Shown: one piece after another, positions 13,876 to 30,295 of the stretch
Layout: every line of letters starts with the position of its first letter
Numbering within the stretch: position 1 is the stretch's first letter
Source: an uncultured Lentisphaerota bacterium
GTDB taxonomy: Bacteria > Verrucomicrobiota > Kiritimatiellia > RFP12 > UBA1067
Assembly (NCBI GenBank): GCA_900321255.1
Contig: ONVK01000018.1
Coordinates: 1 to 36,003 of the forward strand
Direction: 5' to 3'
DNA: 36,003 nt
Notes under the pieces: generated by a model
What the model was told of the DNA's origin: nothing
Database searches by the model: none
The model's input: only the letters and a program-made list of their open reading frames with translations
Made by a program: the position numbers and the translations under genes

Positions 13876-13884
13876 TGGTATAAT
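13876..13884 (+). promoter_or_regulatory. Leaderless promoter of the ftsH operon
   Basis: TGGTATAAT is followed by only 8 nt (CTGCGTAT) before the ftsH ATG at 13893. A start site 6-8 nt after the box falls on or next to the A of the ATG. There is no room for a Shine-Dalgarno. The box lies 28 bp from the divergent box of the hemolysin III gene. Confidence 0.7.
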
Positions 13885-13892
13885 CTGCGTAT

Positions 13893-15887
13893 ATGTCCAA
13901 CGAGTCCAAGAAACCCGCCGCCAGGCCGGACGGGAATAGAACCGGCGCAATGCGATCCTGGATCATAATCGCGACCGTCGTGGCGCTCTTCTTCGCCTTC
14001 TACAAGACGAATCCGGGCGAGCAGGCGGTGCGCGAGCTGACGCAGATCGAGTTCTACAAGGCGCTCGACGAGGGGAAGCTCGTCGAGCCCGTCGTCAGGT
14101 TCATCGACCGCGACGAAGGCGAGACCTATCTCACCGGCGAGATGGAGACCGACCAAGTCGACAAGGACGGCAAGCCCCTCGCCGACAAGAACGGAGACCC
14201 CGTGCGCGTCAGGTACCGCGTGCCCCTCGTCCCGGGCGAGAACGAGCCCCTGATGGAGAACCTCTTCTCCCAGCAGATACCGGTCAAGGTCAAGGAGCGC
14301 AGAAGCCCCCTCTCGCCGCTCGTGATGAACATACTCTTCTTCGGCGGGATGATGTTCCTCTTCTACTGGCTCTTCTACCGCAAGATGGGCGGCGACGGCG
14401 GGATGTTCGGCTTCGGCAAGTCGCGCGCGAAGCTCCTCGACGGCAAGGCGGAGAAGGCAAAGGTCACCTTCTCCGACGTCGCCGGCATCGACGAGGCGAA
14501 GGAGGAGGTCCAGGAGATCGTGTCGTTCCTGAAGGAGCCGGCTGCGTTCCGCAAGCTCGGCGGCCGCATACCCAAGGGCGTCCTCCTCGTGGGCCCGCCC
14601 GGAACGGGCAAGACGCTCCTCGCCAAGGCGATCGCGGGCGAGGCCCAGGTGCCCTTCTTCGCGATTTCGGGCAGCGACTTCGAGGAGATGTTCGTCGGCG
14701 TCGGCGCGAGCCGCATGCGCGACATGTTCGCGGAGGCGAAGAAGAAGGCGCCGTGCATCATCTTCATCGACGAGATCGACTCCATCGGCATGAAGCGCAC
14801 CGGAGCCGGCGCGCTCGGCGCGAGCCGCTACAACGAGCAGACGCTCAACACGATGCTCGTCGAGATGGACGGCTTCTCGCCGAACGAGGGCGTCATAGTC
14901 ATCGCGGCGACCAACCGCCCCGACACCCTCGACGCCGCGCTTCTCCGCCCCGGGCGCTTCGACCGCCAGGTGATGATCGACCTCCCGACGCTGAAGGGAC
15001 GCGAGGACATCCTCGCCCTCCACGGGAAGAAGATCAAGTTCGGGCCCGACGCCGACCTCTCGCGCATCGCGCGCGGCACGCCCGGCTTCTCGGGGGCCGA
15101 CCTCGCGAACCTCCTCAACGAGGCCGCGCTCATGTCTGTCAGGAAGAAGCTCGACGGCGTCGACATGGAGACGCTCGAGGAGGCGCGCGACAAGGTGCTC
15201 TGGGGGCGCGAGCGCAAGAGCGCCGGCTACTCGCAGAAGGACCGCGAAATCACCGCCTGGCACGAGGCGGGGCACGCGATACTCCAGCTCCTCGCGAAGA
15301 ACGCGGATCCCCTCCACAAGGTGACGATCATCCCGCGCGGGCGGGCGCTGGGCGTCACGATGTCGCTCCCCGAACGCGACGTCCTGGGGCGCACGAAGAG
15401 CCACTTCCTCGACGAGCTCGTCATCTGCTGCGGCGGACGGATCGCCGAGAAGATGTTCACCAACGAGATATCGACCGGCGCCGCGCAGGACATCGCGATG
15501 GCGACCGACATCGCGCGCAAGATGGTCTGCACGTACGGGATGAGCGAGCGCTTCGGCTTCCAGGCGTTCAACGAGCAGAGTCCCTACGCCATCGCGGAGT
15601 CGATGCCGCCCGCCTTCAGCGAGGAGACGTCGCGCGCCATCGACGCGGAGGTCTCGAAGCTCATCGCCGACGCGTACGCGCGCGCCGAGCGCGAGATCGC
15701 GGAGAACAGGGACAAGGTCGAGCTTCTCGCGAAGACGCTCCTGGAACGCGAGACCATGGACGGGCGCGACGTCGCGAGGCTCGTCGGCATCGAGATGAAG
15801 GAGCCCGAGAGGGAAGAGGCGAAGCCGGCGGACGAGGCCAAGCCGGGCGAAGCGCAGCCCGGGGAACCCAGGACGGAGGTGCTGTGA
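13893..15887 (+). CDS. ftsH: FtsH, membrane AAA+ zinc protease
   Basis: FtsH is the membrane-anchored ATP-dependent protease that degrades membrane and regulatory proteins. The 664-residue chain has membrane segments at about 21-38 and 142-161 with a periplasmic domain between. The AAA+ module shows GPPGTGKT (234-241), Walker B IIFIDE (289-294), the pore loop MFVG and an SRH with [18 protein letters not shown]. The zinc motif HEAGH is at 457-461, with the third ligand region further on. The C-terminus is a disordered E/K/P-rich tail. It is the first gene of an eight-gene operon, has no ribosome binding site and is probably leaderless. The stop overlaps cdaA as GTGA. Confidence 0.97.
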
Positions 15888-26673: not shown

Positions 26674-27348
26674 TCAGAAGTTTATCCTGAACTCGTTCCG
26701 GTGCCAGGAAAGCAGCCCGCGGTCGCGCATGCGGCCAAGCGAGCGCGAAAGCGCCGGGCGTGTCACGCCGAAGTACTCGGCCATGCGCTCCCGGTTGAAT
26801 GGCAGCTTCACATTGCCCGTGTTCCCCGACTCGTTGTCGAGTTCCTGGAGGTACATCTGGATTTTCGCCTCTATCGTAGGCGCGTTCATCACCGCCAACT
26901 TACGCCAGGCGGAGAAGAATTCACGCGCGAGGATCTTAGATATGTTCGAGGAAAGCCTCGCCATCCGCGGCTCGGCCACCTCAATCATCCGCCTCACGAC
27001 CGCCATGTCGAGCGAAATGAGGGTGCTCGGCTCTGCCGCCACGACGGTACCTGGCCAGCAGGATATCTCAGGGGTGAACAGTATCCACAACCCCAGCACC
27101 TCGCCGACGCGCAGCTCCCTCGCGAAGATATCATGCCCGCCGACGATCTTCTCGTAGACGCGGAGCCGGCCCGAAACGACGACGAACAGCCTGTTCGCCT
27201 CAAGCCCCGCGTGCGCCACCGCCTCACCTTTCGAAAACTCCCTCTTGACGCCGTTGAAGCGATACAGGAGCGACTCTACGTCGTCGGCCGAAAACCCGCG
27301 GAAAAGATCGGCGCTCCTTGCAAGGTTGAGTATGGAGGATTCTAGCAC
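26674..27348 (-). CDS. Crp/Fnr family transcriptional regulator
   Basis: The 224-residue protein has an N-terminal cyclic-nucleotide-type beta roll (FSKGEAVAHAGLEANRLFVVVSGRLRVYEK and FARELRVGEVLG), a dimer helix, and a C-terminal Crp-type winged helix (LPFNRERMAEYFGVTRPALSRSLGRMRDRGLLS). No Fe-S cysteine cluster of the FNR type is present. C-terminal residues end at RINF. The GTG start at 27348 is 1 nt from the permease stop, indicating coupling; no other usable start is close. It probably controls its own transcript or the permease, by inference. Confidence 0.87.
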   Translation of the reverse strand: MLESSILNLARSADLFRGFSADDVESLLYRFNGVKREFSKGEAVAHAGLEANRLFVVVSGRLRVYEKIVGGHDIFARELRVGEVLGLWILFTPEISCWPGTVVAAEPSTLISLDMAVVRRMIEVAEPRMARLSSNISKILAREFFSAWRKLAVMNAPTIEAKIQMYLQELDNESGNTGNVKLPFNRERMAEYFGVTRPALSRSLGRMRDRGLLSWHRNEFRINF

Positions 27349-27349
27349 A

Positions 27350-28318
27350 TCAGCCCTTCTGGAACCTAACGCGCGGATCGAGCGCGGCATAGGCGAGGTC
27401 AGTGACGAGGTTGACAAACTGGTAGAGGAGAGCACCAAGCACCACTACCGCCCTCACGACGGCCATGTCCGCCGAGTGTATCGCATTGATCGACACCGAC
27501 CCAAGGCCGGGGATGCCGAAGAACGACTCGAGGAGGAGCGAGCCAGTGAAGAGATAAGGTATAGCAAGCGAGATGTAGGTCACGATCGGTATGAGCGCGT
27601 TCCTGAGGACGTGCTTTACGAGAATCGCCGCGCCGGAAAGCCCCTTTGCGCGCGCGGTGAGGACGTAGGGCTTGTAGAGCTCGTCGAGTATCGCCATGCG
27701 GAAGAACCTGACGTCGACGCCGAGGGACGAGAGGACGCCTATGAGAACCGGGAGCGCAAGGTAGAACCAGCCGCGGTAGCCCCATATCGGAAAGAGCCCG
27801 AGCTTGTACGAGAGGAGAAACTGCCCCGCGAGCACCCACACGACGTAGTTGACGCTCATGAGGACGGTCGAGCCGAAGAGAATCGCCTTGTCGGGGAAGC
27901 GCCCCCTCCACGCCGCCGCCACGAACGCGAGGAGAAGCCCGACGACCGTTCCCCCGACGAGGATCGGGACCGTGAGCGAAAGGCTCGGCCCGACGCCGCG
28001 CTTCAGGATGTCGACGACGGGTTCCTTCATCTCAACGGAATAGCCGAGGTCGCCCTTCGCGAGATCGCCCACGAAGTTGAAGAGCTGGCTGTCGAACAGC
28101 CCCTTGAAGCCCGCGTCGCCCCATTTGCCCACGATGAGCGGCTTGTCGTAGCCGAACTTGTGGTTGAAGGCCGCTATCGCCTCGGCCGTCGCGTTCTTGC
28201 CGAGGATGACCTCGGCCGGCGAGCCGCCCACTATGTTGAAGAGCGCGAACGCGAGGAGGACGATCCCCGCGGTGGTGGGGATCACCTCGGCGATTCTCCT
28301 GAGCACGTACTTCAGCAT
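27350..28318 (-). CDS. DppB/OppB-type ABC transporter permease
   Basis: The 322-residue permease has about six membrane segments and the oligopeptide-transporter signature (MLKYVLRRIAEVIPT start, GDLGYSV, YVLTARAKGLSGAAILVKHVLRNALIPIVT with the EAA loop). It would form a channel with a second permease, an ATPase and a binding protein, none of which is encoded next to it. It overlaps the end of the kinase-like gene by 7 nt (ATG at 28318) and precedes the Crp-type gene. Orphan or split-locus status is inferred from this window alone. Confidence 0.88.
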   Translation of the reverse strand: MLKYVLRRIAEVIPTTAGIVLLAFALFNIVGGSPAEVILGKNATAEAIAAFNHKFGYDKPLIVGKWGDAGFKGLFDSQLFNFVGDLAKGDLGYSVEMKEPVVDILKRGVGPSLSLTVPILVGGTVVGLLLAFVAAAWRGRFPDKAILFGSTVLMSVNYVVWVLAGQFLLSYKLGLFPIWGYRGWFYLALPVLIGVLSSLGVDVRFFRMAILDELYKPYVLTARAKGLSGAAILVKHVLRNALIPIVTYISLAIPYLFTGSLLLESFFGIPGLGSVSINAIHSADMAVVRAVVVLGALLYQFVNLVTDLAYAALDPRVRFQKG

Positions 28319-30279
28319 GGCGCCCCGCTCTCTATCGCCGCGCGCAGAACGGCGGCGACCGCCTTGGGGTCGCACTGGTCGAGGCGCTCGAGCGTCTTGG
28401 CCCAGCGGTACGCGCCCGAGCCCGCGACGTCGAACGGACGGTGGACGAAGAGCTCGTCGAACGCGCGGCGGCGCTCGCGGTACTTCGCCTGCACGTCGGC
28501 AAGCGTGCGTTCGAAGGCCGTGACGTAGGCGTCGGCGAACGCTGCGACGTCGGGCACGAACTTCGCGCGGCGGCGCACGACGTTCGCGTACGGGGCCACG
28601 GTGTCCTCAAAAGTGTGGAGGTAGTTGACGAAGCTGCCCGCGTGGTCGGTCGCCACGATCTTCGCCGGAAGCCCGTCGGGGCCGAACTGGACCACTTCGT
28701 AGTTCTTGTCGAAGAGGTTCTCCTTCGTCTCCGAGGAACGCCGCCCGACGATTATGTCGTGCGCGGCCGCCTCGCCCATCAGCCATGCGAACGCGAGCGC
28801 GAACGCCGGATTGCGGAAGCGCGCCGGGGGGATCTTGTCAGAGGCCGTGCCGGGGACGTAGTCGCGGACATAGCCGAACGCGCGCACCGTCGTGCCGTTG
28901 TACTGGTTGTGCCCGCGGTAGGTCTCGGGGAACTGCGCTATCGCGACGCGGGGCGGGAGGTTCATGCCGAGCTGGCAGCACATGAGGCGGCGGTCGAGGA
29001 TGTAGTCGGCGTATTCGTTGGCCTCTATCGTCGCCTGCAGCAGGTCCTTGCCCTCGTCGAGATGCTCGGCGACGCCCCACTTCTGGAAGCGGAGCAGCAC
29101 GAGCCGAACCTCGTCGGAATCGGCGGTCTTGCACTGGATTACGTAGACGCTCCCGTGGCGCGAGCCCTTGATCGGCTCGCGGGCCAGCGAACGGGCGATG
29201 CGCCCGACGTTGACGAACTCGATGTCGTTGAACAGCCGCATCGTGTTGAAGATCACGTTGCGGACGTGGAAGTCGCACAGCGGCTCGAGCGACGGATCGC
29301 GCGTGCGGCTGTATTCGTCCCAGAGGGGGTCGAAGATGACCTCGCCGCGGTCGATGCGCGCGCCGGGAAGCCACTCTATCTGGCGGTAGAACTCGGGCGA
29401 TATGCCCTGGATCAGGTCCTGCTCCGCGGCGTTCGTCTCGTTCGTGCCCGCGGTAACGGCCGTGCACATCGCGTTGCGCCAGTCGAAGTTGCCGACCGAC
29501 TCCTCGCGCAGCTCGGGCGGAAGCGACATGCGCCAGTCGAGGGCTATCTTCTCTACCGCCGCGCGGAGAGCGGCGTCGTCGAGCGAGTCGACCTCGATGC
29601 CCTTCAGGGCGTTCTTGATCTCGATCGGCGTGGTCGTGGGGAACAGATCGACCTCCGGATGGCCCATCCTGTTGCGCTTCTTGAGGAGCGAAACCACCTC
29701 CCTGACCTGCGCCCTGTATTCGTCGGCGGGCAGGGCGGAGACGATGTCATATCCCCCGGCGGTGATGTAGCGAGTGCCGATGGCCTGGTTGTAGAAGTAG
29801 ACCGCCTTCTCGCCTATCGCCACGCGGGAGCCCTCGACTATCCGCGACATGTCCTCCTGGGAGATGGGCGCGCGGGCCATGCGCCAGTTCTCGCCGCGCG
29901 CCCTGAGCGCGTTGCGGACCTTCGCCGCATGCGTGTTGAGGAAGCGAATCCTGCGCTTGTTCACGAGCTTCTGCAGCTCGTCGTCGGCGAGGAAGGCGAG
30001 GTCCATGCGGTCGGGATCGGGGCGGATGAGGACAAAGTCGTCTGTGAAGATCAGGTCGACCGACTGCTCGAGCTCGGCTTCCTCCTCGGAAGATGTGAGC
30101 GGCGGCAGCCCGGCCTCGGAGCGCCTGGCGTTGAGGTGGTCGATCCACATGACGCGCTGCATGGCATGGACGCCGCGCCGCGTCACGAGACCCGGGGTCT
30201 TGAGGAACAAGGTGCCGATCCGGCTGGCAAGGCTGCCGTCCGGAGCTTTTGCGAAAATCTGCTCTCCTAAGATCTGCAT
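28312..30279 (-). CDS. Unrecognised 655-residue protein with a kinase-like second half
   Basis: I do not recognise a family. No signal peptide or membrane helix is visible. Residues 1-360 are helical and charged. Residues about 370-550 show an ordered set of kinase-fold landmarks: KGSRHGSVYVIQC (371-383) like a glycine loop and beta 2; VRLVLLRF (391-398) like beta 3 with R397 at the lysine place; VRAFGYVRDYVPG (465-477) like a hinge; HDIIVGRR...ENLF (507-523) like a PI-kinase-type catalytic loop; and ATDHAGSF (543-550) like the DFG region. The missing lysine leaves activity uncertain. The start is the ATG at 30279, 7 nt from a TGGTATAAT box (leaderless). Its tail overlaps the permease gene. 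Confidence 0.6.
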   Translation of the reverse strand: MQILGEQIFAKAPDGSLASRIGTLFLKTPGLVTRRGVHAMQRVMWIDHLNARRSEAGLPPLTSSEEEAELEQSVDLIFTDDFVLIRPDPDRMDLAFLADDELQKLVNKRRIRFLNTHAAKVRNALRARGENWRMARAPISQEDMSRIVEGSRVAIGEKAVYFYNQAIGTRYITAGGYDIVSALPADEYRAQVREVVSLLKKRNRMGHPEVDLFPTTTPIEIKNALKGIEVDSLDDAALRAAVEKIALDWRMSLPPELREESVGNFDWRNAMCTAVTAGTNETNAAEQDLIQGISPEFYRQIEWLPGARIDRGEVIFDPLWDEYSRTRDPSLEPLCDFHVRNVIFNTMRLFNDIEFVNVGRIARSLAREPIKGSRHGSVYVIQCKTADSDEVRLVLLRFQKWGVAEHLDEGKDLLQATIEANEYADYILDRRLMCCQLGMNLPPRVAIAQFPETYRGHNQYNGTTVRAFGYVRDYVPGTASDKIPPARFRNPAFALAFAWLMGEAAAHDIIVGRRSSETKENLFDKNYEVVQFGPDGLPAKIVATDHAGSFVNYLHTFEDTVAPYANVVRRRAKFVPDVAAFADAYVTAFERTLADVQAKYRERRRAFDELFVHRPFDVAGSGAYRWAKTLERLDQCDPKAVAAVLRAAIESGAPC

Positions 30280-30286
30280 GGAGTAT

Positions 30287-30295
30287 ATTATACCA
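30287..30295 (-). promoter_or_regulatory. Leaderless promoter of the 655-residue gene
   Basis: TGGTATAAT followed by ATACTCC and the ATG. The 7-nt spacer leaves no leader. The T-rich stretch just upstream doubles as the tail of the preceding terminator. Confidence 0.7.

Follow-up and report, generated by a model that had tools for sequence, protein, structure and literature searches.

A conserved protein family of Kiritimatiellia with a predicted kinase-like fold and an atypical putative ATP/metal site

A β3 lysine, an HRD-type aspartate and a catalytic-loop asparagine are typical of the catalytic members of the kinase-like (PKL) superfamily, and none of the three is required for the fold. 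Bud32/PRPK and actin-fragmin kinase, to which we return below, retain the canonical catalytic motifs. Of the members known for other activities, SelO retains the β3 lysine, the αC glutamate and the DFG motif (PMC3281104), and PKL proteins with altered sites catalyse non-kinase reactions such as AMPylation or glutamylation (PMC10870513). Kinase-like folds with altered sites have repeatedly been found to do new chemistry, SelO and SidJ being two examples. The family described here would add to this picture a conserved, profile-invisible group of bacterial proteins, from a phylum with little biochemistry.

Its founding member lies in a window of 36,003 nucleotides (the whole stretch of DNA that was analysed, to which all positions refer unless another contig is named), where a frame of 655 codons plus stop, at 28312..30279 on the minus strand, is a real gene, as judged from its translation and its full-length relatives. 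We use the name family A for the 655-residue protein together with these relatives. Searches of the genomes of this phylum revealed proteins of the same length across Kiritimatiellia, with 40-99% identity to it, and a single distant copy, at 29% identity, in a different class of the phylum; the nearest records come from rumen and gut assemblies of Kiritimatiellae. The gene is single-copy in its own genome, and a search of plasmids, phages and viral contigs found no relative. TGA stops flagged within some family A matches turned out to be normal gene ends. In one genome there are additional short hits to the N-terminal region of family A (G344:C206:3903-4430 and C100:15098-15325), possibly fragments or a further paralog.

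Comparison with sequence libraries gave no clue to the family's nature. The protein has no match in Pfam, NCBIfam or the PDB sequences, and nothing useful came from running 30 relatives against Pfam, or against the PDB by phmmer and by family profile; the few Pfam matches among members were weak, scattered and mutually unrelated. The consensus sequences of family A and of its distant paralog, family B (see below), found no Pfam family at E values up to 10, and up to the same value the PF00454 (PI3_PI4_kinase) profile was matched neither by the 30 members nor by the consensus sequences. Even with family profiles and consensus sequences, no link at this level to any known kinase family was found, nor was there a confident match to any non-kinase family in the sequence libraries searched. 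Families A and B make up a conserved two-branch family absent from the domain libraries tested, and none of the papers searched describes a kinase-like family from Kiritimatiellia.

Structure prediction was more informative. Two AlphaFold2 models were built, one of the full-length protein (20 sequences, without templates) and the other of residues 292-655 (a 20-row alignment); both alignments used a subset of the family A loci, shallower than the family and made of fairly close sequences. The full-length model has a pLDDT of 70 and a pTM of 0.56, with a better defined C-terminal part and residues 1-130 predicted with fair confidence. No fold was assigned to the N-terminal region as a whole (residues 1-291, 29407..30279, minus strand), which shares its ancestry with the corresponding half of the family B proteins. 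The model of residues 292-655 alone reaches a pLDDT of 82 and a pTM of 0.82, good values for a prediction from a 20-row alignment. In this domain model (m4fdcac441014) the elements follow the kinase order: five N-lobe strands (β1 353-361, β2 378-385, β3 391-398, β4 444-453 and β5 464-473) with αC (413-437) between β3 and β4, then the hinge, then a C-lobe with αE (491-511), β7 (528-532) and β8 (538-543), followed by a DFG-like turn and helices. Within the domain, confidence is lowest in the catalytic-loop stretch, where residues 515-520 have a pLDDT under 50.

When the domain model was compared with the PDB by VIA-align, the best 50 of 50 rows were PKL folds, with Z from 11.8 to 9.5 and aligned stretches of about 185-255 residues; as a yardstick, models without a clear match give a best Z of 7-8, falling to 4-5 at rank 50. 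The top matches include Bud32, actin-fragmin kinase and VPS34, the last within the top three, and VPS34 was also matched by the full-length model (Z 10.7 over 246 residues at 4.2 Å). The best Foldseek matches were VPS34, PINK1, Aurora, VRK2 and PI4K, with weak scores (best E 3e-4, TM 0.2-0.4), and a viral library returned mostly kinases. The bilobal arrangement of PKL proteins, i.e. an N-lobe sheet with αC, a hinge, a C-lobe and a DFG turn, is thus found both in the predicted model and in its PDB comparison. Because the matches spread over lipid, protein and small-molecule kinases, they indicate the superfamily and not the subfamily. From these models it is very probable that the C-terminal half of the protein (about residues 337-655, 28315..29271, minus strand) is a PKL fold domain, of a family outside the libraries tested. 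A possible divergent protein-kinase or PI-kinase-like fold had been proposed by an earlier sequence-only reading, together with its means of verification, namely structure prediction and a comparison with known structures in search of the two lobes. As a prediction the proposal is borne out, since both lobes were seen and no other family was matched; its boundaries, residues 371-550, were too narrow.

That reading had rested on five motifs, all of which are found in the order and places described (29166-28630, minus strand, residues 372-550), and only three of which are conserved when 30 family A sequences, with identity down to 29%, are aligned. The three are VLLRF, the hinge-like FGYVRDYVPG and DHAGSF. 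The first carries Arg397 (29089..29091, minus strand), which stands in predicted β3 in the place of the kinase lysine and is Arg in 30/30, so that the VAIK-type lysine is absent from family A. FGYVRDYVPG lies at the end of β5, in the β5/hinge stretch 464-482 (28834..28890, minus strand), of which R472, Y474, G477 and K482 are invariant. DHAGSF is at the metal-site position, just after β8 (D/E545-x-x-G548-x-F550, 28630..28647, minus strand); position 545 is D in 23 sequences, E in 6 and G in 1, and G548 and F550 are 30/30, so that a DFG-type acidic residue and glycine are found in nearly all members. The two other motifs did not hold up. For GSVYVI, taken as a glycine loop, position 376 holds Gly in 12/30 sequences and is absent from 14/30, and the family has no conserved glycine loop; the place of the P-loop is occupied by an Arg-rich loop starting at β1 with an invariant N357-x-G359-R360 (29200..29211, minus strand). 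As to ENLF, the supposed end of the catalytic loop, N521 is Asn in 10/30 and Val in another 10/30. The region 512-528 (28696..28746, minus strand) has instead G512-R513 at its start and F523, D524 and E528 towards its end, all invariant, with Glu528 in the place of the usual Asn, and so it lacks both an HRD-type Asp and a loop Asn in their usual form. The metal and catalytic residues are probably D524, E528 and D545 rather than N521. The αC-like helix (413-437, 28969..29043, minus strand) provides a candidate partner for β3 at position 419 (E in 27/30, D in 2) and has invariant Y423, Y426 and R430; E452 is invariant too. Over residues 330-655, 16 of the 34 invariant positions are within the 66 positions that would line a kinase cleft (hypergeometric p = 2e-4), the segments having been picked after seeing the model.

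With these elements in place, the best reading is, in our view, that family A is a PKL family of its own with an unusual ATP/metal site; we infer both the catalysis, of which we are half convinced, and the roles of the residues. The domain would be a transferase that uses ATP and metal, in the simplest case a phosphotransferase, with ATP bound between the lobes and its phosphates held by R397 and the Arg-rich β1-β2 loop. Since E528 opens β7 and D545 follows β8, the order of the elements in the model suggests that these two would be the metal ligands, standing where kinases have the loop Asn and the DFG Asp, and that D524 is a candidate base; we infer in the same manner that D524 and E528 correspond to the HRD Asp and the loop Asn of kinases. 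The conserved N-terminal half may bind the substrate or have a regulatory role.

The strongest competitor is a pseudokinase, in which the PKL fold would bind a nucleotide or a partner protein without any transfer, as a scaffold or an allosteric regulator. Three residues that commonly mark active kinases are indeed altered or displaced (Arg for the β3 Lys, no HRD Asp in the usual place, Glu for the loop Asn), the ActPs2 and DYD families of bacterial pseudokinases carry the same Lys-to-Arg change (PMC12599244), and family B is still more degenerate, having lost D524 and D545. However, a dead site would need none of the residues that family A has kept down to 29% identity: D524, E528, D/E545 and many charged residues of the cleft, R360, R397, R472, K482, R513, D524 and E528 each being 30/30. 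Such a pattern seems unlike that of a decayed pseudokinase, and we regard this alternative as somewhat unlikely.

Family B, of about 707 amino acids, was uncovered by profile search; it is present in nearly all genomes of the order and has no match in Pfam. Alignment of the A and B profiles with hhalign gave an E value of 3e-28 overall, 4e-17 for the kinase halves and 2e-15 for the N-terminal halves, against about 0.2 for the crossed halves used as negative control, which points to a shared ancestry along both halves. In a tree, a branch with a support of 100/100 separates A from B. They have in common N357, Y423, Y426, R430, R472, G477, E528 and G548, E528 being invariant in B as well. Family B has Gly or other residues at D524 and Ser at D545, and a Lys (K427, in most members) in its apparent β3, the alignment being uncertain around β2-β3. 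The losses from an ordinary site would thus differ between the two families. In the source genome the family B member (L081:6361-8481, plus strand, on G000:C120) comes directly after a nucleotidyltransferase-APH (MurU-AmgK-like) fusion gene, and such a fusion precedes family B in several genomes. The idea of an obligate A-B pair, of the Fam20A/Fam20C type, was dropped, as B occurs in the absence of A in several genomes (f4, f63, G198, G230, G282) and, at the level of the class, others have A without B. At this point we may only speculate that A and B are two branches of a PKL enzyme family born in Kiritimatiellia, with an active site rebuilt, through Arg in place of Lys, Glu in place of the metal Asn and a shifted catalytic Asp, for a phosphoryl, adenylyl or other transfer done by no described PKL family; this broader proposal is unlikely as it stands.

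It is less likely again that family A is a PKL-fold enzyme with another of the known reactions, e.g. AMPylation as in SelO or glutamylation as in SidJ: the site is Arg-rich and combines several differences from kinases, and such chemistry is what known altered-site PKL proteins do (PMC10870513), but Pfam gave no SelO match, neither SelO nor SidJ was among the structural matches listed, and nothing points positively to a particular reaction. The last possibility, a kinase fold falsely predicted for a domain that has another one, could draw on a model fed by only 20 fairly close sequences, on the weak Foldseek scores and on the lack of any profile in support of kinship, and is very improbable given that two models of different lengths agree, that the Z of the 50 best VIA-align matches, all PKL proteins, is never under 9.5, and that conservation falls on the predicted cleft.

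Little can be learnt of function from the gene's surroundings. As proposed earlier, the family A gene heads a tight operon, here of three genes: the start of a DppB-type ABC permease gene (27350..28318, minus strand) overlaps its end by 7 bases, and a Crp/Fnr-type regulator (26674..27348, minus strand), found at this place in close relatives only, could begin at a GTG that lies 1 base beyond the end of the permease gene. A TATAAT box (30287..30292, minus strand) 8 bases upstream of the A gene's ATG looks like a leaderless promoter, and TATAAT precedes the A gene in many relatives of the genus despite different upstream genes. In the source genome TATAAT is followed 3-9 bases on by ATG in 215 cases, as compared to 20 for the pattern read backwards (examples in the window are 30292-30277 and 26642-26627 on the minus strand and 13879-13895 on the plus strand); this excess suggests frequent leaderless transcription in the organism. 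The A-permease pair was seen at about 30 loci, all in the genus or in one nearby genus; in two genomes a DppC-type partner follows it. The DppB-type gene of the window has no adjacent DppC; a DppC-type gene is on another contig of the source genome (G000:C77:1854-2681), and the only SBP_bac_5 protein found there is on a third contig, apart from both. Other lineages show other neighbours: folD immediately before A in family f2 and in a pair of f1 genera (L127, L139, L131, L147, L160-L168), a NudC-type Nudix gene directly downstream in three genera (L126, L127, L139), PGM/PMM in f7 and SLT in f19. In two distant lineages (L136, L147) rodA and rng are within one or two genes of A, in differing arrangements. 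No neighbour is shared with A across the class among the lineages compared. The suggestion of a new signalling or uptake system is consequently unsupported beyond close relatives, and an assignment of function from gene neighbours, which differ between lineages, was set aside.

If family A is, as we favour, a separate PKL family with such an unusual ATP/metal site, it offers a short list of residues for mutation, and its sister family B, with its different losses, a means of comparison. Among known systems, the PI3/PI4-kinases (VPS34/PIK3C3, PI4KIIIbeta, PI4KIIalpha; PF00454) are among the best structural matches and give the longest alignments (Z 11.8 to 9.7, about 240-255 residues); unlike them, family A has an Arg for the β3 Lys, and no sequence match, conserved D-R-H-x-x-N loop or known lipid link. 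Bud32/PRPK and actin-fragmin kinase share the top structural score (4ww7 and 1cja, Z 11.8), again with no sequence match. The ActPs2 and DYD pseudokinases share with family A a conserved Arg for the β3 Lys (PMC12599244), but both fall, as divergent members, within the standard group of bacterial Ser/Thr kinases, whereas family A has no Pkinase match in Pfam, with its members or with the consensus. By every sequence test made here family A is outside PF00454 and the standard kinase families, and it may nevertheless work like them. SelO, SidJ and Fam20A, with no detectable kinship to family A, are precedents for a kinase fold with a rewired nucleotide site.
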